Source: Enterococcus pallens ATCC BAA-351
Lineage (GTDB): Bacteria > Bacillota > Bacilli > Lactobacillales > Enterococcaceae
NCBI RefSeq assembly: GCF_000407485.1
Contig: NZ_ASWD01000005.1
Coordinates: forward strand, 62,001-126,000
Reading direction: 5' to 3'
Length of the DNA: 64,000 nucleotides
The notes beneath the pieces were generated by a model, which saw only the letters and a program-made list of their open reading frames with translations, did no database searches and was not told the origin of the DNA. Shown piece by piece: positions 9,709-45,024 of this stretch (its first letter is position 1; every line of letters starts with the position of its first letter). Position numbers and translations under genes: made by a program.

Positions 9709-9736
9709 ATTCCCAGTGAGAAAAATTGAATAGAAG

Positions 9737-10439
<703 letters not shown>

Positions 10440-26864: not shown

Positions 26865-26893
26865 TTGACAGCTCTCTGATTTTTCGATAGACT
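26865..26893 (+). promoter_or_regulatory. trpXYZ leader promoter
   Basis: Consensus TTGACA (26865-26870), exactly 17 bases, then TAGACT (26888-26893). Transcription should start near 26900, about 24 bases before the leader peptide. Confidence 0.85.
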
Positions 26894-26923
26894 ATTGTCA
26901 ATATCAAAGAAGGAGTGACATTC

Positions 26924-26980
26924 ATGATGAATACAAACTTATCCGTTCAATTGAATAGCTGGCAAAACTGGCGTAGATAA
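26924..26980 (+). CDS. Trp-rich leader peptide controlling trpXYZ
   Basis: An 18-codon open frame, MMNTNLSVQLNSWQNWRR, with AGGAG at 26911-26915, 8 bases before the ATG. It contains Trp codons at 26960-26962 and 26969-26971, separated by two codons, and stops with TAA at the edge of the first RNA pairing segment. Two tryptophans in 18 residues, just before an attenuator and a tryptophan importer, is the arrangement of a classical leader peptide, in which a ribosome short of Trp-tRNA stalls and changes RNA folding. The peptide is probably without function of its own. It resembles the aro leader peptide at 29965 (shared QLN and S before the sensing codons). Confidence 0.88.
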   Translation: MMNTNLSVQLNSWQNWRR

Positions 26981-27141
26981 GTTGTGTTTATGAATTCACT
27001 TCATAGATACAACGTTTAGACTATCTCTAAATTGTGTATCTATGCGCTGGTACTTTTTGTGTCGTTTCCCGCATAGAGCAATCTATGCGGTTTTTGTCTG
27101 TTTAGGCAACTGCCGCCATTTGTGGAGGTAGTTGCCTTTTT
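26981..27141 (+). promoter_or_regulatory. ribosome-mediated attenuator with tandem terminators (tryptophan)
   Basis: Segments: 1 (26981-26994), 2 (27000-27013), 3 (27032-27046), 4 (27069-27077), 5 (27082-27096), 6 (27104-27119), 7 (27123-27137). Possible pairs: 1:2 hairpin (14 positions, two wobbles); 2:3 (10 perfect, TGTATCTATG with CATAGATACA); 3:4 (8, TCTATGCG with CGCATAGA); 4:5 terminator T1 (9 perfect plus T5); 5:6 (ten pairs, with a bulge and internal loop, 27085-27096 with 27107-27119); 6:7 terminator T2 (AGGCAACT/AGTTGCCT plus inner pairs, then T5). A ribosome halted at the Trp codons leaves segment 1 free, so 1:2, 3:4 and 5:6 form and both terminators are avoided. A ribosome reaching the stop covers segment 1 and favours 2:3, 4:5 and 6:7. 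Pairings are read from sequence; the behaviour is inferred. Confidence 0.85.
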
Positions 27142-27187
27142 CGTATTTAAAAATAGACATTTACTTAAAAAATTGGGGGAATTATTT

Positions 27188-28201
27188 ATGAAAAACAAAG
27201 GGATTATCGGATCAATCATTGCATTAGCCGTGGTACTAATCGGAGTATTTGCTTACCAAATGGGTTCAAGACAAAACAATACAGAAGCTGGCCAGAAGGA
27301 AGAAATGAAGACAGTCGGCATTCTGCAATTTATCAGTCATCCTTCGTTGGATCAAATATCCGATGGTGTAATAGAAGGATTAAAGCAAGAGGGTTATGAA
27401 GATGGTAAAAATATCAACATTGAGTTTTTAAACGGTCAAGGTGATCAAAGTAAGCTAAACACAATGACTCAGCAATTATTAAATAAAAATTCAGATGTGT
27501 TAGTGGGCGTTGCAACACCAGCTGCAAAAGCTTTGGCGAATGGGACTTCTGACATTCCAGTAATCATGGGTGCCATTAGTGATCCAATTGGTTCTGGTTT
27601 AGTAGACAGCTTGGAAAAACCTGGCGGGAATGTTACTGGTGTAAATAACTTGGCACCAGTTGGTCAGCAATTCGAATTAATCAAAGCCTTGTTCCCAGAA
27701 GCAAAGAAAATTGCTTTATTATACTCTTCTTCTGAAGAAAACTCACAATCACAAATTGATAAGGCAGAAGAAATGGCCAAAAAAGAAGGCTACGAAGCGA
27801 CTCGTTATGCGGTATCTTCAAGTAATGAAATCGCACAATTAGCCCAATCTGCGGCTGCAGAGAATGATTTTATCTACGTACCACAAGATAATATTATCGC
27901 AAATGCATTTCAAACAGTTATCAATGAATCTGATAAAACGAAAACACCCGTTTTTGTATCTGTAGACAATATGGTAAATGAAGGAGGAATTGCTACCATC
28001 GGGCAAAATCAGTTCGACTTAGGCGTTGAAACAGGTAAAATGGCAGCTGATGTTTTAAATGGCAATACAGATGCTGGTAATACACCAGTTAACGTAATCG
28101 ACTATGGTGAGATGATTATTAACGAGAAGAAAGCTGCCGAATTAGGTATTACCATTCCAGAGGATATTAAAAAAGAAGCGAAATTAGTTGAAGGAGAATA
28201 G
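27188..28201 (+). CDS. trpX: tryptophan ABC transporter substrate-binding protein TrpX
   Basis: 337 residues of the ABC-type substrate-binding family seen in streptococcal TrpX (Peripla_BP-like core with GAISDPIGSGLV and a C-terminal LGITIPEDI ending). The N terminus is one hydrophobic anchor (about residues 5-24) without any cysteine, so it is a membrane-anchored rather than lipidated binding protein. It contains no tryptophan. The ATG at 27188 has a GGGG-type site; the frame is open upstream to 27122, but that part lies in the terminator. Substrate is inferred from the family and from the Trp-codon leader. Confidence 0.85.
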   Translation: MKNKGIIGSIIALAVVLIGVFAYQMGSRQNNTEAGQKEEMKTVGILQFISHPSLDQISDGVIEGLKQEGYEDGKNINIEFLNGQGDQSKLNTMTQQLLNKNSDVLVGVATPAAKALANGTSDIPVIMGAISDPIGSGLVDSLEKPGGNVTGVNNLAPVGQQFELIKALFPEAKKIALLYSSSEENSQSQIDKAEEMAKKEGYEATRYAVSSSNEIAQLAQSAAAENDFIYVPQDNIIANAFQTVINESDKTKTPVFVSVDNMVNEGGIATIGQNQFDLGVETGKMAADVLNGNTDAGNTPVNVIDYGEMIINEKKAAELGITIPEDIKKEAKLVEGE

Positions 28202-28204
28202 AAA

Positions 28205-29083
28205 ATGGTCATTTCAGCAATTGGACAAGGTTTTTTATGGGGGATTTTAGGTTTAGGTATTTTCATGACCTATCGCATTCTAAATTTCCCTGATATGACA
28301 ACTGAAGGTTCTTTTCCTTTAGGAGGAGCCGTATGTGTAACAGCAATCACGCAGGGAATTCATCCTTTGCTAGCAACACTTTTAGGTATTTTGGCCGGCA
28401 TGTGTGCAGGTTTTGTTACCGGTATGCTTTATACTAAAGGAAAAATTCCAGTGATTTTGGCAGGAATCCTAGTTATGTCAGGTTTAAACTCAGTGATGCT
28501 GTTTATCATGCAGACACCAAACTTGTCATTGCTGGGCAAACCAAAGATTCAAGACTTTTTCACTCGTTTAAACTTGCCTGATCACTATGATATTGTCATT
28601 TTAGGATTGATAGCAGTCAGTTTAATTATTGCTTTGCTGCTGTTCTTCTTTTTCACTGACTTTGGCCAAGCGTACATTGCGACTGGTGATAATGAAAACA
28701 TGGCACGTTCAATTGGGATTAATACAGATCGCATGAAAGTTATTGGTCTGACCTTATCTAATGGTGTGATAGCTTTATCAGGAGCTTTAATTGCTCAAAA
28801 TGATGGCTATGCTGATATCGGCAAAGGGATCGGTGTAATTGTAATCGGCTTAGCTTCAATTATTATTGGGGAAGTATTGTATGGCGAATTGTCCTTTGGT
28901 GAACGGTTAATCGCAGTTGTTTTAGGAAGTGTCATTTATCAATTATTAATCCTGCTAATTATTAAACTAGGACTGGATACAACTTATTTGAAAATCTTCT
29001 CATCGATCATTTTGGCAATCTGCCTAATGATTCCACGCTTGAAAGAAGCGCTAAACTTAAAAACAGGATTAGAAAAGGAGTAA
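28205..29083 (+). CDS. trpY: tryptophan ABC transporter permease TrpY
   Basis: A 292-residue integral membrane protein with about eight or nine membrane helices, of the branched-chain/sugar-type ABC permease family. Features include MTTEGSFPLGGAV near residue 30 and the cytoplasmic loop GDNENMARSIGINTDRMKVIGL, which contacts the ATPase. It begins three bases after the trpX stop. Only one Trp residue (W12) is present. Confidence 0.86.
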   Translation: MVISAIGQGFLWGILGLGIFMTYRILNFPDMTTEGSFPLGGAVCVTAITQGIHPLLATLLGILAGMCAGFVTGMLYTKGKIPVILAGILVMSGLNSVMLFIMQTPNLSLLGKPKIQDFFTRLNLPDHYDIVILGLIAVSLIIALLLFFFFTDFGQAYIATGDNENMARSIGINTDRMKVIGLTLSNGVIALSGALIAQNDGYADIGKGIGVIVIGLASIIIGEVLYGELSFGERLIAVVLGSVIYQLLILLIIKLGLDTTYLKIFSSIILAICLMIPRLKEALNLKTGLEKE

Positions 29084-29087
29084 GCAG

Positions 29088-29870
29088 ATGGAGGCATTAC
29101 AAATTAAACAAGCAACCAAAACCATTCGCAATGGTATCAACGACAAACGCCAAATTCTGCGCTCCGTTGATTTAACCATTCAACCAGGAGAATTTGTGAC
29201 CGTTTTAGGCGGAAATGGTGCTGGAAAAAGTACTTTGTTCAACAGTATTTCGGGAACGATGATGCTGGATAGCGGAACTGTTTCGGTTATGGGCAACGAT
29301 TTAACCAAGCTGCCAGAAGAAAAAAGAGCCAATTACATTTCTCGCGTGTTTCAAGATCCTAAAATGGGAACGGCTCCTCGTTTAACGGTAGCTGAAAATT
29401 TAGGCTTAGCGGAAAAGCGCGGCCAAAAACGTGCGCTGCGGCCTCGGGGCTTATCACAAAAACGAGAGGCCTATCATCAATTGTGCAGCCAAGTTGGCAA
29501 CGGCTTAGAAAATCATTTAGATACACCAACAGGATTTTTATCTGGCGGTCAACGCCAGGCGTTAAGTTTGCTAATGGCAACCTTAACCAAACCAGATTTG
29601 CTATTATTAGATGAACACACTGCAGCTTTAGATCCTAAAACAGCAAAACAATTAATGAAGGTAACTGATCAGAAAATCAAAGAAGAACAACTCACTTGTT
29701 TAATGGTTACTCACAAAATGGAGGATGCCCTAAACTATGGTGACCGAGTAATTGTGATGCAAAAGGGTCGAATCGTCAAAGACTTAAAGGGTGAGGAAAA
29801 AGCTAAGCTTTCCTTGACTGATTTGTTCTTATTTTTTGAGGAAGAGGAAGCGGCAGAGGAAAATAGCTAA
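29088..29870 (+). CDS. trpZ: tryptophan ABC transporter ATP-binding protein TrpZ
   Basis: 260-residue ABC ATPase: Walker A GGNGAGKST (about residues 41-49), signature LSGGQRQALS, Walker B LLLLDEHTAALDP and switch His in VTHKMED. It lies four bases after trpY and completes a three-gene importer. No tryptophan residues. No clear terminator follows before the aro leader promoter at 29902, so read-through into the second attenuator is possible. Confidence 0.88.
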   Translation: MEALQIKQATKTIRNGINDKRQILRSVDLTIQPGEFVTVLGGNGAGKSTLFNSISGTMMLDSGTVSVMGNDLTKLPEEKRANYISRVFQDPKMGTAPRLTVAENLGLAEKRGQKRALRPRGLSQKREAYHQLCSQVGNGLENHLDTPTGFLSGGQRQALSLLMATLTKPDLLLLDEHTAALDPKTAKQLMKVTDQKIKEEQLTCLMVTHKMEDALNYGDRVIVMQKGRIVKDLKGEEKAKLSLTDLFLFFEEEEAAEENS

Positions 29871-29901
29871 GGTCTGATGAACTAAAAGTTCAAAAAAAGC
29901 A

Positions 29902-29930
29902 TTGACAAGTAAATTAAAGAAATTTATACT
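29902..29930 (+). promoter_or_regulatory. aro operon leader promoter
   Basis: TTGACA (29902-29907), 17 bases, TATACT (29925-29930). Same design as the promoter at 26865. Confidence 0.87.
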
Positions 29931-29964
29931 TAGTGCAATCAGAAATCAGTTTGGAGCGATGATC

Positions 29965-30021
29965 ATGCAAACAACTAGACATCCACAACTGAATAATTCT
30001 TACTTTAGCTATTTTAGATAG
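29965..30021 (+). CDS. Tyr/Phe-rich leader peptide controlling the aro operon
   Basis: An 18-codon frame, MQTTRHPQLNNSYFSYFR, ending in TAG at 30019-30021. GGAG at 29953-29956 is 8 bases before this ATG; another in-frame ATG at 29959 is too close to it. The end reads Tyr-Phe-Ser-Tyr-Phe-Arg, so a shortage of either charged Tyr- or Phe-tRNA would stall ribosomes. The operon it precedes makes chorismate, tyrosine and phenylalanine precursors. Length, SD spacing, the QLN-S core and the Arg-stop ending match the Trp leader at 26924, indicating common origin. Confidence 0.88.
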   Translation: MQTTRHPQLNNSYFSYFR

Positions 30022-30184
30022 GTTTGTATTCATGAATTCATGGATGCAAACAATGCACGTTTGTATCTATGATGGCTGAAGAACTTTAAATTGACTTTAA
30101 AGCCATGTAGATGATTCATCTATAATGGCTTTTTTCTTTTAGTAGACCCATTGTAGATGTATTGCCTACAAGCGGGTCTTTTTT
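30022..30184 (+). promoter_or_regulatory. ribosome-mediated attenuator with tandem terminators (Tyr/Phe)
   Basis: Segments: 1 (30022-30034), 2 (30039-30051), 3 (30059-30077), 4 (30101-30113), 5 (30117-30130), 6 (30144-30159), 7 (30166-30179). Pairs: 1:2 (13, two wobbles, loop AATT); 2:3 (13, two wobbles); 3:4 (6 plus 5, AGCCAT/ATGGCT and TAGAT/ATCTA); 4:5 terminator T1 (6 plus 6 with a bulge, then T6); 5:6 (12 consecutive pairs, CATCTATAATGG with CCATTGTAGATG, one wobble); 6:7 terminator T2 (AGACCC/GGGTCT and TTGTAG/CTACAA, then T6). Read-through register is 1:2, 3:4, 5:6; stop register is 2:3, 4:5, 6:7. The near-perfect 5:6 helix shows that the second terminator is also conditional. Inferred function: termination when Tyr- and Phe-tRNA are charged. 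Confidence 0.87.
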
Positions 30185-30221: not shown

Positions 30222-31388
30222 ATGCGTTATTTAACAGCAGGAGAATCACACGGGCCACAATTAACAGCAATTATTGAAGGAGTACCAGCAGGAATAGCGG
30301 TATCTTTGGATGAAATTAATCAGGAGTTGGCTAGACGACAAGGCGGCTATGGCCGCGGTGGCAGAATGAAAATCGAAAAGGACCAGGTTCAGATTACCTC
30401 TGGCATTCGCCATGGGAAAACTTTGGGCTCTCCCATTACCATGATCGTCGAAAACCGTGACTGGAAAAACTGGCAAACCGTCATGTCAGTAGAAGAAGTT
30501 GCAGAAAAGGATACTCAATTACGCAAAGTAACTAAACCTCGTCCGGGACACGCTGATTTAGTAGGTGGAATGAAATACCAGCATCGAGATTTACGAAACA
30601 TCTTAGAACGCTCTTCTGCTAGAGAAACAACGATGCGGGTTGCAGTTGGCGGCTTAGCCAAGCAGATTTTAAAAGCGTTAGGCATTGAAATCGCCAGCCA
30701 CGTTGTAAATTTAGGTGGTATTGAAGCCAAAGTCCCTGAAGAAATCAGTGTTAAGGAAATTCAGCAGGCTGCTGCGGCTTCTGAGGTAAACATGGTAGAT
30801 CCTTCGATTGAAGAAGCAGTAAAAACCAAAATTGATGAAACGAAAAAAGCTGGCAATACTATCGGTGGCGTAGTAGAAGTCCGTTTAGAAAATGTTCCCG
30901 CTGGTTTAGGCAGCTACGTTCAATGGGATCGCAAGCTTGATGGTAAAATTGCTCAAGCAATTGTTAGTATCAATGCCTTTAAAGGTGTTGAGTTTGGCGT
31001 AGGCTTCCAAGCAGCAAATTTACCTGGCTCTGAAGTAATGGACGAAATTACTTGGCAAGAGGGGCAAGGCTACCAACGCAAATCAAATCATTTAGGCGGA
31101 TTCGAAGGCGGCATGACCAATGGTGAACAGATTATTGTCAGGGGAGTTATGAAGCCTATCCCTACATTATACAAACCACTAATGAGTGTTGATATTGATA
31201 CAAAAGAACCTTATAAAGCAAGTGTGGAACGTTCTGACAGTACAGCAGTACCAGCAGCAGCTATTGTAGCAGAAAATGTAGTAGCCACGGTTATTGCTAC
31301 TGAAATTCTGGAGCAGTTTCATTCAGATAATATCGCAGATCTAGTTCAAAATGTAGATGAGATGCGCAAACAGCATTTAGCATTTTAG
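30222..31388 (+). CDS. aroC: chorismate synthase
   Basis: Makes chorismate from EPSP using reduced FMN. The N-terminal [18 protein letters not shown] (residues 7 on), the GRGGRMKIE block, and [14 protein letters not shown] are family signatures. 388 residues, typical for the Bacillus-type enzyme (called aroF there). First gene after the attenuator, with a GAAGG site before the ATG. Downstream genes use chorismate towards tyrosine and phenylalanine. Confidence 0.95.
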
Positions 31389-31402
31389 GAAGGTTGTCTC
31401 AA

Positions 31403-32485
31403 ATGGAGAAGAAAGTTTTTGTCGTAGGTTTAGGTCTAATTGGTGCTTCCTTATGCCGAGCTATTAAGCAGCCTGACATTAAACTGTACGGTTGGGATTT
31501 TCAAGAAGAAAGCTGTCAGATTGCAAAAACAACAGGTATTGTAGATGAGGTAGCTAAGGGATTATCCTCAGCGGTAGAGATGGACATTATCATCTTGGCG
31601 GTACCAGTCAGCGTTTCAATGGACTATTTGCAAAGCTTAGCAGAGCTTCCATTAAAAAAAGATGCGATTGTTACCGATGTAGGCAGTACAAAATCGGCTG
31701 TCGTTCAATTAGCCAAAACACTCCCCTTTACTTTTGTAGGGGGACACCCGATGTCAGGGTCACATAAATCGGGGGTTAAGGCAGCAAATCCTAATCTCTT
31801 TGAAGAAGCTTATTACATTTTGACGCCAACTGGGGAGCAACAAACGGCTGTAGAAGAATTGATTGAGCTTTTAACGCCAACAAGAGCTAAATTTGTAGTT
31901 TTAGATCCTGAAAGCCATGATGAGATGGTAGGGGTGTTAAGTCACCTGCCTCACATTGTTGCTTCAGGATTAATGCAAATGAGTGATCAGCTGGCGACCA
32001 CCTATCCGAGGGCAAACCAACTAGCAGCAGGCGGATTCCGTGATATTACCCGGATCGCCTCTTCCGATCCTAAAATGTGGACGGATATATTGTTGACGAA
32101 TCGTAAAATATTGCTGAAGCTAATGGATGATTGGCAGCAAGAAATGGACGAAATTAAGCAGCAATTGCAAAGGAATGACAGGCAGGCAATTTATCAATTC
32201 TTTGCTCAGGCGAAGGAAACCCGCGATCATCTTCCGCAAAAGGATCGAGGTGCGATTCCAGCCTTTTACGATTTATTAGTAGATATTCCAGATATTGCTG
32301 GAGCAGTTGCTCAAGTAACAACCGTTTTGAGCCAGCATAAAATTTCAATTATCAACTTGAAAATTCAAGAAACACGAGAAGATATTTTTGGAGTTTTAGA
32401 ACTATCTTTTAAAAATAAAGCAGATTTATTAGCAGGCAAAGCGTTTGTGGAAGCAGAAAAATTTAGTTGTCGGATAAGGAGTTAA
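31403..32485 (+). CDS. tyrA: prephenate dehydrogenase
   Basis: NAD-dependent oxidation of prephenate to 4-hydroxyphenylpyruvate for tyrosine. Rossmann motif GLGLIGASL near the N terminus; the [10 protein letters not shown] substrate block follows; and a C-terminal ACT domain (from about residue 290: [16 protein letters not shown]) suggests allosteric feedback by an aromatic amino acid. 360 residues. The ATG at 31403 is 10 bases after AGGAAGG. Confidence 0.94.
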
Positions 32486-32489
32486 TACC

Positions 32490-33773
32490 ATGCGTTTAAT
32501 GTCAAAGTCAAAAGGTCTAACAGGTGAATTAATTGTTCCAGCAGATAAGTCGATTTCCCATCGTAGCGTGATGTTTGGAGCAATCAGTCATGGAAATACA
32601 ACGATCCATAATTTTTTAAAGGCTGAGGATTGTTTGAGTACTGTCGCTGTTTTTAAAAAGTTAGGCGTTTTAATAGAAGAAAAAGATGGTGTGTTAACCG
32701 TCCACGGGAAGGGATTTGAAGGCTTAAAACAGCCAACTGAAGTACTCGATGCAGGAAATTCAGGAACTACGATGCGTCTCGTGCTGGGGATTTTAGCTGG
32801 TCAGCCCTTTAACTCAACGATCCAAGGGGACAGCTCTTTAAACAAACGTCCAATGGAACGAGTAATGGGACCACTTCGTCAAATGGGGGCCGTACTAGCT
32901 GGCAACCAAGAAACAGAGTATCCGCCTATTACAGTAGAAGGCGGCACGTTGCGAGCGATTGACTATCAAATGCCAATTGCCAGTGCACAGGTCAAGTCCG
33001 CGATTTTGTTTGCAGCACTACAGGCTGAAGGTGAAACAACTGTAATTGAAAAAGAATGTTCACGCAACCACACAGAACAAATGATTCGTCAGTTTGGCGG
33101 CAATATCACGGTTAACGACAAAGAAATTCGACTTCCTGGTAAGCAGCAATTAACGGGACAAGAGGTTCATGTACCTGGGGACATTTCATCGGCAGCTTTT
33201 TTCTTAGTTGCCGCATTGTTAGCAGCAAATAGTTCATTATGCTTGAAAAAAGTTGGCGTTAATCCTACTCGTACAGGAATATTGGATGTTCTGGCACAAA
33301 TGGGGGCCAAGATTACTCGTACAAATGAGGATCAAAAAAACCAAGCAGCTGATTTACTGGTGGAGACTAGTTCATTAAACGCTTGTGAGATCAGTGGAGA
33401 AATTATTCCTCGTTTAATTGATGAATTGCCAATTCTTGCCTTAGCAGCAACTCAAGCAGAAGGTACGACAATTATTAAGGATGCTCAGGAATTAAAAGTC
33501 AAAGAAACTAACCGCATCGATGCAACAGCAGATGAATTAAATAAAATGGGGGCCAACATTGAACCGACGGAGGACGGCATGATTATTCACGGTCCGACTC
33601 CTTTACACGGAGCAGCGGTTGACAGCCATGGTGATCATCGCATCGGAATGATGCTGCAAATTGCTGCATTATTAACTGAGGAAGACGTTGAGTTAACTAA
33701 TCCAGAAGCAATTAATATTTCTTATCCAGACTTTTTCAAGGATTTAGATCAATTAATAAAGGAGCGAGTGTAA
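32490..33773 (+). CDS. aroA: 3-phosphoshikimate 1-carboxyvinyltransferase (EPSP synthase)
   Basis: Joins PEP to shikimate 3-phosphate. Conserved [14 protein letters not shown] (about residues 20-33), the GNSGTTMRL block near residue 92 and RIKETNR-like [14 protein letters not shown] are all present. 427 residues. The QSQ/QVKSA region ([11 protein letters not shown]) suits the class II type of Gram-positive cocci, but glyphosate behaviour is not inferred. AAGGAG lies before the ATG. Confidence 0.95.
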
Positions 33774-33775
33774 TA

Positions 33776-34276
33776 ATGGAATCAATTGTGTTGATTGGGT
33801 TTATGGGAGCAGGCAAAACAACAATAAGTAGAGAACTGGCAGAAACACTAAATTATCAGCGAGTAGATATGGACGATGTGCTGGTAGATCGTATTGGTCC
33901 GATTAATGTGTATTTTGAAGAGCATGGGGAGCCGTCATTTCGTGAGCACGAGACCAATTTATTAAAGGAAGCTGTTCAGCAATCTTCAGTAATTGCAACA
34001 GGAGGCGGCGTCATTTTACAAAAAGAAAACCAAAAAATCTTGTCAGACAAAATGGTCGTCTACTTGAAAACTGATCCAGATGTTTTAGTTGAGCGTATTC
34101 GCAATGACCGAGAAAATATTCGACCAAATGCTGCCAACAAAAACGATGGTGAAATTAAGCATCTATTCTTTTCTCGAGAAAAGTTGTATGAAAAGCTGGC
34201 GAAGGTGACAGTTGATACTTCTCATCGTACCCCACAGGAGATTGTTGCTGAGATTATGGAAAAGGTCGGTCTGTAA
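33776..34276 (+). CDS. aroK: shikimate kinase
   Basis: Phosphorylates shikimate at the 3-hydroxyl. Walker A GFMGAGKTT (residues 8-16), the MDD shikimate-binding acidic pair, FREHE and the ATGGGV loop are visible. 166 residues. Its stop shares a base with the pheA start (TAATGG), so the two are tightly coupled. Confidence 0.94.
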   Translation: MESIVLIGFMGAGKTTISRELAETLNYQRVDMDDVLVDRIGPINVYFEEHGEPSFREHETNLLKEAVQQSSVIATGGGVILQKENQKILSDKMVVYLKTDPDVLVERIRNDRENIRPNAANKNDGEIKHLFFSREKLYEKLAKVTVDTSHRTPQEIVAEIMEKVGL

Positions 34277-35115
34277 TGGATATTGGTTATTTGGGCCCAA
34301 AAGGTTCGTTTACTCATTCAGCTGCCTGCAGCTACTTTTCCAGCGGGAATTTGATTAGCTATGCTTCTTTAGTCCAGTTGATCGATGCTCGCATGAACAA
34401 ACAGATTGATTATGCTATGGTGCCAGTAGAAAATACGATTGAGGGCTCGGTTTTGCCGACGATTGATGGCATTTATCAAACCCTGCCAACAATTCAAGGG
34501 GAACTAGTGCTGCCAATTGCCCAACAGCTGATGGTGCATAAAAATCACCAAGATCACTGGCAGAAGGCTACTTTAATCTGTAGCCATCCCCAGGCCTTGG
34601 CACAATCACAGGTTTTCATACGTGATCATATGCCTCATGCGGAGATTGAACAAATGGCTTCGACCACTTTAGGGGCTAAAAAGGTTGCTGATCAACCTGA
34701 AGAAATTTATGCAGCAATTGGTCCCAAAATGGCTGCTAAAGAGTACGATTTAGTTATTGTGGAAGAAAATATTCAATCCGTCGCCAACAATGAAACACGT
34801 TTTTGGCTGTTAGGAGATGAGCCCATTGCTGCTGACTTGATTTTTGTTCAGCAAAAGGCTACTTTAATTGTCGATTTACCGATGGACCGTCCCGGAGCGT
34901 TGTATCATTTGTTGGAAATTTTTGCTAAAGCGAAAATAAATTTAACAAAGATTGAATCACGACCACAAAAAACACGTTTAGGTGACTACTTCTTCATCAT
35001 TGATTTAGAGGTGCCAGAAGATGTGAGCATACTAGAAAGTGCTTTGAAACAATTGGACGGACAGTCCTTCCCCTTTAATTTAATAGGAAACTATCCAACC
35101 TATCGAAAACCTTAG
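34276..35115 (+). CDS. pheA: prephenate dehydratase
   Basis: Converts prephenate to phenylpyruvate. The dehydratase domain opens with GYLGPKGSFTHSA and holds the VPVENTIEGSV motif and the ETRFWLL end with the conserved Thr; an ACT domain follows with the Phe-binding ESRPQKT motif (about residue 230). 279 residues, a monofunctional enzyme without fused chorismate mutase. Last gene of the operon; the stop lies inside the terminator stem-loop. Confidence 0.95.
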   Translation: MDIGYLGPKGSFTHSAACSYFSSGNLISYASLVQLIDARMNKQIDYAMVPVENTIEGSVLPTIDGIYQTLPTIQGELVLPIAQQLMVHKNHQDHWQKATLICSHPQALAQSQVFIRDHMPHAEIEQMASTTLGAKKVADQPEEIYAAIGPKMAAKEYDLVIVEENIQSVANNETRFWLLGDEPIAADLIFVQQKATLIVDLPMDRPGALYHLLEIFAKAKINLTKIESRPQKTRLGDYFFIIDLEVPEDVSILESALKQLDGQSFPFNLIGNYPTYRKP

Positions 35116-44744: not shown

Positions 44745-44750
44745 TATTTT

Positions 44751-44859
44751 TCTTCTTCCATCCAGACTGTACTGTCGGTCTCAGAATTGCACTGAGTCAA
44801 CCTAAAAAGGCTCGCGGACTATCACCGCCGGTCGGGAATTTAACCCTGCCCTGAAGAAC
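44751..44859 (-). promoter_or_regulatory. FMN riboswitch (RFN element) of ribU
   Basis: The minus strand reads the conserved RFN pieces in order: a P1 strand TTCTTC, then AGGGCAGGGT, AATTCCCGACCGGCGGTGATAG, GCGAGCC, the variable arm, and the closing TGGATGGAAGAA. FMN binding would favour the downstream terminator and stop riboflavin uptake. Confidence 0.93.
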
Positions 44860-45024
44860 TATTGTGTCTATTTTCACATATCAAATCTGAAATTGCAAGC
44901 GTTTTTTAATTTTTTTCTTAGCAATCTATCGACTTTTTCTCATTAAAGACTAAAAAAAGTAGGCAGAGATATGATAAACTAGACGAAGTAACATTGAAGC
45001 AGAAAACTATTTTATCTATGAAAT

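Follow-up and report, generated by a model that had tools for sequence, protein, structure and literature searches.

Two leaders lying about 3 kb apart in a 64,000-nt stretch of Enterococcus pallens ATCC BAA-351 (contig NZ_ASWD01000005.1, positions 62,001 to 126,000; this whole stretch is the window referred to below) can be read, with a probability of roughly 0.8, as ribosome-mediated transcription attenuators, each with eight pairing segments numbered here 0 to 7. Each has a promoter-like site, a Shine–Dalgarno (SD)-like site, a short open reading frame (ORF) and two terminators, T1 (segments 4 and 5) and T2 (segments 6 and 7). The control codons fit the pathway, with WQNW encoded before trpXYZ (trp leader) and YFSYF before aroC-tyrA-aroA-aroK-pheA (aro leader). 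The proposal draws on the anatomy of the leaders, their conservation and covariation, the positions of the control codons and a ribosome-dependent fold before segment 5 is made, all obtained by computation.

According to the proposed mechanism, without a ribosome segment 3 would be taken by segment 0 in the aro leader or by segment 2 in the trp leader, 4:5 and 6:7 would form and transcription would terminate. A ribosome completing the ORF would mask segment 0 together with the first bases of segment 1, leading to 2:3 and then to 4:5 (T1) and 6:7 (T2), again with termination. A ribosome held at the Trp codons of the trp leader or at the Tyr/Phe codons of the aro leader would mask segment 0 partly or wholly and leave segment 1 free to form 1:2; segment 3 would then take segment 4 once this has been made, segment 5 would lack a partner until it takes segment 6, and both terminators would fail. 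A single decision of the ribosome would thus be relayed to two terminators in series. In the cell, we infer, this would involve kinetic escape past T1, joint switching of T1 and T2 and control by starvation.

The core of this relay (1:2/3:4/5:6 for read-through, 2:3/4:5/6:7 for two terminators) had been proposed in an earlier sequence-only reading. Its logic finds support in masked-ribosome folds and in a 5:6 pairing that is conserved and covaries. Its seven segments have become eight: segment 0, which consists of the last codons of the leader ORF and pairs with segment 3, had been missed. Two features of peptide-leader attenuators are present, namely an ORF behind an SD-like site with clustered cognate codons, and alternative pairings that exclude one another and lead to an intrinsic terminator. 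A third, selection of the fold by the position of the ribosome with the control codons at the deciding place, is seen in silico only before segment 5 has been made and is absent at full-length equilibrium.

We further consider it probable, if with somewhat less confidence, that the eight-segment chain is a modular device conserved across the order, in which terminators are gained or lost through U-runs or the last hairpin, such that most biosynthetic operons have two terminators, transporters a single one at the far end and some trp leaders a single one at the near end, and that two published orphan riboswitch candidates, as well as a small RNA family of Rfam, are instances of this device.

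Conservation of the 5:6 pairing and the optional terminators

In each leader a second intrinsic terminator does follow the first where it had been predicted, and in the aro leader segments 5 and 6 form the 12 consecutive pairs originally described (−16.1 kcal/mol). For the trp leader, ten interrupted pairs between 27085-27096 and 27107-27119 had been claimed. The pairing itself stands, but its register and strength do not: the best RNAduplex register joins 27087-27091 to 27112-27116 and 27094-27100 to 27103-27109, with 12 pairs and −15.5 kcal/mol, 11 of them usable because the innermost pair would close a loop of 2 nt. This complementarity is above chance: among 100 dinucleotide-shuffled versions of segment 6 there is none that pairs as well, in either the aro copy (L004) or the trp copy (L149).

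Homologues of the aro leader were studied at 148 loci matching the Rfam family RF02863, five from the same genome (the window's included), 30 from the search of the family Enterococcaceae and 113 from among the matches listed; 147 were usable, L102 being excluded as it runs off its contig. Judged by tblastn, 76 of the 148 precede a TrpX-like transporter, 52 an AroC or aroE-like reference and 20 neither. An order-level sample comprises 20 loci from other families of the order, and trp-type leaders were taken from 60 loci, 56 of them distinct. T2 was called by an energy rule, and the U-run of T1 required at least five U in the eight bases after 4:5.

A loss of 5:6 in homologues conserving both T1 and T2 had been named beforehand as the observation that would speak against the relay, and what we find is that 5:6 is conserved. 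A duplex of −8 kcal/mol or stronger is present in 67/67 aro-type, 74/74 transporter-type and 17/19 order-level leaders (54, 56 and 18 distinct, respectively), and in 64, 63 and 16 of them at least 98 of 100 shuffles pair less well; left out of this count were five aro-type leaders lacking a T2 call, L102, and L123 and L184, in which segment 4 was not located. With segments 5 and 6 aligned separately and by class, the 5:6 diagonal ranks first in every class: aro-type leaders are paired at 95.3% there and at 82.6% on the runner-up, its one-column neighbour, and the corresponding values are 99.3% and 70.2% for transporter-type and 93.1% and 59.5% for order-level leaders. The classes were kept apart because a pooled alignment blurs the diagonal (84.3%, neighbour 79.5%).

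The covariation of the two segments that the sequence-only reading had put forward as a check is seen as compensatory changes. Over the eight columns of the transporter-type duplex, one pair occurs as GC in 23, GU in 23 and AU in 11 of 57 distinct leaders and is never unpaired. Both terminators are present in 47/56 distinct trp loci by the rule of our script, with 5:6 at −6 kcal/mol or stronger in 47/47 and p ≤ 0.05 in 31. A variable base of segment 5, readable together with its partner in 42 of these 47 and counted independently of the duplex, gives C-G 27 times, U-A 11, U-G three, U-C once and C-A never.

The terminators, on the other hand, come and go. All 74 measured transporter-type leaders have T2 and none has a U-run after 4:5, compared with 60/72 of the others (mostly aro) and 1/19 at the order level. 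Since they keep 5:6 and T2 without the U-run of T1, the relay is conserved and T1 is optional; here 4:5 together with 5:6 is the sole evident route from the ribosome to a terminator. Nine of the 56 distinct trp leaders (L204-L208, L210, L217, L221 and L227), none of them from the window's family, have T1 alone when the script's rule is applied, so that T2 is optional in the trp class too. Taken together, these two groups indicate that the chain is more than a coupler of two terminators.

The best surviving alternative, to which we give a small but real chance, is that T2 is a constitutive back-up terminator of a peptide-leader attenuator and that 5:6 is left from a duplication of the T1 hairpin, segment 6 having been copied from segment 4. 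An old duplication is plausible because segment 6 equals segment 4 at most comparable positions (593/699 in aro, 487/577 in transporter, 137/163 in order-level and 215/267 in trp leaders), and the nine trp leaders that manage without T2 would suit a back-up. A mere back-up would, however, leave the sole terminator of the transporter-type leaders with no evident handle for the ribosome once 5:6 is discounted. Moreover, in six trp leaders segment 4 retains a G that only wobbles while segment 6 has an A matching the U of segment 5, a count that uses the duplex and includes the near-identical L219 and L220; a bare copy would not be expected to differ in this way. Nor does a remnant account well for the 282 of 549 trp 5:6 pairs that use segment 5 bases unpaired in 4:5, at the loop edge or on the U-run side.

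Leader peptides and folding with a ribosome on the leader

At least three aromatic residues occur in the last eight codons of the leader ORF at 147/147 usable RF02863 loci, and the peptide ends in YFSYFR at 131 of them. For RF04312, the Rfam family of the trpB motif, the 30 best matches among those with loci from the searches were inspected: 30/30 have an ORF with an SD-like site, a W in the last ten codons and a stop codon 12-30 nt before the motif, and 27/30 encode at least two aromatic residues within these ten codons, against 9/180 displaced windows. The peptide end of the window's Trp leader is the same in relatives. Segment 0 pairs with segment 3 in 143/143 Tyr/Phe leaders in which segment 3 could be located (of 147; median −16.9 kcal/mol), and in the 56 trp leaders the median is −15.6 kcal/mol, with 87.5% at p ≤ 0.04. 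This pairing would explain the fixed codon choice in the Tyr/Phe leaders, where Ser is AGC and Arg is AGA in 142/147 each, out of six codons for either amino acid.

These leader ORFs bear directly on a second explanation, which we hold to be very unlikely, that the elements are riboswitches for an aromatic amino acid or a precursor. This was proposed for the Streptococcus agalactiae elements gbs1262 and gbs2033, which precede paralogous ABC transporters, yield short terminated forms in RNA-seq and were called new aromatic amino acid riboswitch families (PMC4448216), and the trpB motif is considered a strong riboswitch candidate by authors who leave a classic attenuator open (PMC11109978). The proposals have covarying hairpins and, for both Streptococcus elements, premature termination by RNA-seq on their side (PMC4448216, PMC11109978). 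Against them stand leader ORFs with matching control codons at 30/30 and 147/147 loci, a conserved structure that is a chain of mutually exclusive pairings with segment 0 inside the ORF, and control codons lying about where folding predicts antitermination. The distribution of T-boxes argues in the same direction: among 42 TrpX-like loci found by protein, 20 have a Trp or Tyr/Phe leader (all in Enterococcus or Lactobacillus), a further one, in Peptostreptococcus russellii, has a Tyr-rich ORF, 12 of the 40 scanned with Rfam have a T-box above cut-off (one of them in Streptococcus), and none has both. By the same rules the last nine carry neither, seven of them having been scanned with Rfam.

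That the terminated leader is a functional trans-acting small RNA, as its Rfam label sRNA_2410 implies and as two transcripts on a Northern blot of E. faecium Aus0004 might suggest (PMC5593968), is the least probable reading, though compatible with attenuation, from which short terminated RNAs are expected anyway, and it sits poorly with a leader ORF at 147/147 usable loci and a TrpX-like transporter or aro reference downstream of 128/148. We did not accept the Northern doublet as proof of T1 and T2 either, the best RF02863 copy (L006) being transporter-type with one U in eight after 4:5.

Returning to ribosome-mediated attenuation, the free-energy folding suggested in the sequence-only reading gave a divided answer. 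At full length and at equilibrium, with the ribosome masked, both terminators form everywhere, and this cannot serve as a direct test of a kinetic switch. An earlier decision point was therefore used, at which the transcript ends with segment 4, segment 5 is still to come and the ribosome masks the bases up to A-site + 12; here the fold does depend on the ribosome. In the window's trp leader 3:4 stands at 0.69 with the ribosome at W13 and at 0.71 at Q14, N15 and W16, compared with 0.00-0.01 for the two codons preceding W13 and 0.40 and 0.14 at the two Arg codons, falling to 0.00 at the stop. In the aro leader 3:4 reaches 0.90-0.93 from Y15 to Y18 and 0.63 at F19, and is 0.00 without a ribosome.

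The homologues were folded in the same way. Capture of segment 4 in 56 trp leaders is 0.74-0.78 at codons −6 to −3, 0.46-0.57 around these and 0.42 at the stop codon, and W is found at −6 (89%) and −3 (84%). In 70 aro-type leaders capture is 0.85-0.93 at −8 to −3, 0.69 at −2 and 0.38 at the stop codon, with Tyr/Phe at −7, −6, −5, −3 and −2; 66 transporter-type leaders show 0.67-0.80 over codons −8 to −3, with 0.45 left at the stop codon. Antitermination is thus predicted for a masked ribosome standing roughly where the Trp or Tyr/Phe codons lie.

Several points weigh against the attenuator model. Once segment 5 is made, equilibrium folding favours T1 and T2 at every ribosome position tested, so that the switch must be kinetic. 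The leading edge of the ribosome was taken as A-site + 12, and shifting it by 3 nt moves the codons of predicted antitermination by one (64/192 leaders). The contrast in trp capture is modest (0.74-0.78 at the favoured codons, 0.42-0.57 outside), the Phe at −2 of aro-type leaders lies on the falling edge (0.69), and in the window's own aro leader 3:4 is still 0.40 at the stop codon and already 0.92-0.93 for the two codons before Y15. On the comparative side, the script found no T2 in 5/72 aro-type leaders, which were dropped, 16/47 two-terminator trp leaders fail to beat 95 of 100 shuffles for 5:6, and the relatives, counted as single leaders, are not independent.

Layout of the two leaders and occurrence of their homologues

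Features of the trp and aro leaders and their operons (window coordinates)
Feature	Positions	Strand	Details
trp leader promoter, sigma-70-like (TTGACA-17-TAGACT)	26865..26893	+	10/12 consensus matches
Trp leader peptide ORF MMNTNLSVQLNSWQNWRR*	26924..26980	+	AAGGAG at 26910; control codons W13, W16
trp segment 0 (within ORF end)	26967..26979	+	13 pairs with segment 3
trp segments 1 (26981-26994) and 2 (27000-27013), hairpin 1:2	26981..27013	+	begins directly after stop codon
trp segment 3	27035..27052	+	possible partners 0, 2 or 4
trp T1: segments 4 (27069-27077) and 5 (27082-27090), U-run 27091-27095	27069..27095	+	
trp 5:6 antiterminator duplex (27087-27100 with 27103-27116)	27087..27116	+	
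trp T2: segments 6 and 7 (27104-27137), U-run from 27138	27104..27141	+	
Operon behind trp leader: trpX 27188-28201, permease-like gene 28205-29083, ABC-ATPase-like gene 29088-29870	27188..29870	+	
aro leader promoter, sigma-70-like (TTGACA-17-TATACT)	29902..29930	+	11/12 consensus matches, best of the region
Tyr/Phe leader peptide ORF MIMQTTRHPQLNNSYFSYFR*	29959..30021	+	GGAG at 29953; control codons Y15, F16, Y18, F19
aro segment 0 (within ORF end)	30005..30020	+	15 pairs with segment 3
Rfam RF02863 (sRNA_2410) match in aro leader	30005..30151	+	77 bits; gathering score 61
aro segments 1 and 2, hairpin 1:2	30022..30051	+	begins directly after stop codon
aro segment 3	30059..30079	+	possible partners 0, 2 or 4
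aro T1: segments 4 (30099-30114) and 5 (30117-30132), U-run 30130-30135	30099..30135	+	first U-run bases within stem
aro 5:6 antiterminator duplex (30117-30128 with 30148-30159)	30117..30159	+	
aro T2: segments 6 and 7 (30144-30179), U-run from 30180	30144..30184	+	
Operon behind aro leader: aroC, tyrA, aroA, pheA, shikimate-kinase-like gene 33776-34276	30222..35115	+	

The trp promoter call is weak on its own, as 15 such sites occur in the region against 12.5 expected. A simple terminator scan catches only trp T1 of the four terminators, the other three probably being unlisted because of bulges, mismatches or long loops. The window's trpX passes the NF041285 TrpX cut-off, and in a scan of named species genomes its product is closest to the TrpX of Enterococcus sp. 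665A (96% identity), while the permease-like and ATPase-like names are generic matches below cut-offs. aroC, tyrA, aroA and pheA each pass a curated cut-off; the shikimate-kinase-like gene remains below. Elsewhere in the window, an FMN riboswitch (44746-44862, minus strand) and a PyrR binding site (9735-9873, plus strand) both score above the Rfam gathering score.

Besides the aro leader, RF02863 matches four other places in the same genome. It occurs in 101/105 genomes of the family at E ≤ 0.01, in 95 of them above cut-off; at order level, E ≤ 0.001 is reached in 215/395 genomes sampled (99 above cut-off; 52/80 genera); of the control genomes, 1/14 matched at E ≤ 1 in the own-genome search and none in the family and order searches. 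At E ≤ 0.001, BLAST with the trp leader finds 102/105 genomes of the family, in some cases over 30-50 bases only. With E ≤ 1e-4, RF04312 is found in 173/395 of the order's genomes (59 above cut-off; 41/80 genera), with Lactococcus lactis as the only control matched at this level and 4/14 controls at E ≤ 0.1. The phylum-wide RF04312 search gave 2/348 genomes, and because both belong to the window's own order it is no test of the Fusobacterium case discussed below.

Five proteins were scanned from the 20 RF02863 loci with neither downstream reference, and the best matches, all incomplete and below cut-offs, were shikimate dehydrogenase (two), 3-dehydroquinate synthase, shikimate kinase and DAHP synthase (one each); the remaining loci of the 20 were judged by eye. 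At three places in the E. pallens genome (L001, L002 and L005) a TrpX-like transporter gene lies behind a Tyr/Phe instead of a Trp leader. The products at L001 and L005 score 335 and 307 bits, below the TrpX cut-off of 390, and these low scores would be consistent with transport of Tyr or Phe. A second aro locus of this genome with a Tyr/Phe leader (L003, contig 2 near 535 kb) carries, downstream of T2, an apparent aroE remnant: the aroE-like frame stops after 59 codons and a DAHP-synthase-like frame begins about 280 bases past its start. Two scanned relatives (L147 and L055) have a longer shikimate dehydrogenase frame at the equivalent place. At L077 an aro-type leader is followed, some 380 bases beyond its stop codon, by an ORF that by eye resembles a small transposase and not aroE. 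Outside the Lactobacillales, Peptostreptococcus russellii (L273) has an ORF with an SD-like site ending in RYYYYFGYYI about 340 bases before a TrpX-like gene, possibly an independent Tyr leader.

Relation to Rfam families and known attenuators

Neither Rfam model covers the whole device. The trp leader scores 17.6 bits with RF02863 and fails the cut-off that the aro leader passes, and with RF04312 (cut-off 59 bits) the two window leaders score 48.9 and 44.9 bits (E 4.7e-6 and 2.7e-5), both below; 6/8 close Enterococcus trpX loci (L241-L248) do pass. The trpB motif spans 2:3 and 4:5 with T1 of the trp leader, but it is filed as a riboswitch candidate and its model omits the leader ORF, segments 0, 1, 6 and 7, and T2. 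The sRNA_2410 match takes in segments 0 to 5 of the aro leader with the beginning of segment 6, and its printed consensus, in our own reading, already holds 0:3 and 1:2, yet the family is catalogued as a small RNA; it is named for a putative E. faecium small RNA, and neither 'attenuat' nor 'leader' occurs in the source text as available (PMC5593968). Judged from their sequences, both families look like peptide-leader attenuators. The gbs1262 and gbs2033 elements differ in having been interpreted as riboswitches, and a leader peptide goes unmentioned in the available part of that report; the second of them also precedes the E. faecium aroFBC-tyrA operon (PMC4448216). By analogy of their neighbours (trpB of Fusobacterium and aroFBC-tyrA of E. 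faecium), these two elements may correspond to the trp type and the Tyr/Phe type of the leaders described here.

If the attenuator model is correct, the trpB motif and gbs2033-type riboswitch candidates need no ligand, the sensor being the translating ribosome. Peptide leaders would be a common control of aromatic amino-acid genes in the order, beside the T-boxes of trpX (PMC9382623) and of the homologous transporters found here; Tyr or Phe would be suggested as substrate of the TrpX-like transporters behind Tyr/Phe leaders; and a long pairing relay would hold a distant terminator under ribosome control.

The T-box model RF00230 has no match in either window leader; the 24 T-box matches elsewhere in the genome all lie off the window's contig. 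The T-box leader of Streptococcus suis trpXYZ likewise acts by transcription attenuation on the operon of a homologous tryptophan transporter, but through direct sensing of uncharged tRNA and with no leader ORF (PMC9382623). Rli60 of Listeria monocytogenes is another Firmicutes leader once predicted to be a riboswitch or small RNA and then shown to be a ribosome-mediated attenuator; it differs in responding to branched-chain amino acids and in the one terminator and one antiterminator described for it (PMC5864092). The ermK leader of Bacillus licheniformis is described as a transcriptional attenuator with two adjacent intrinsic terminators (PMC4335068), but a macrolide-resistance leader by the cited title and not an amino-acid leader.

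The closest precedent for the relay is the his attenuator of enteric bacteria, in which a peptide leader chooses between AB, CD, EF and BC, DE with one terminator (PMC10989985). There the ribosome covering the first segment leads to read-through, whereas here segment 1 must stay free, and the window leaders have two extra segments, one of them within the ORF and competing for segment 3, as well as a second terminator on the chain. The sequence-only reading, which knew of no described peptide-leader attenuator with such a relay and called for a literature check, needs qualification, for peptide-leader relays (his), two adjacent terminators (ermK) and a leader mistaken for a riboswitch (Rli60) are already in print; among the open-access literature matches listed, we recognised neither a relay of this kind nor a leader peptide in these elements. 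What appears to be new, as far as the open-access literature shows, are the leader peptides of these families, an eight-segment chain that has one of its segments in the ORF, and the way in which one and the same chain serves either one or two terminators.

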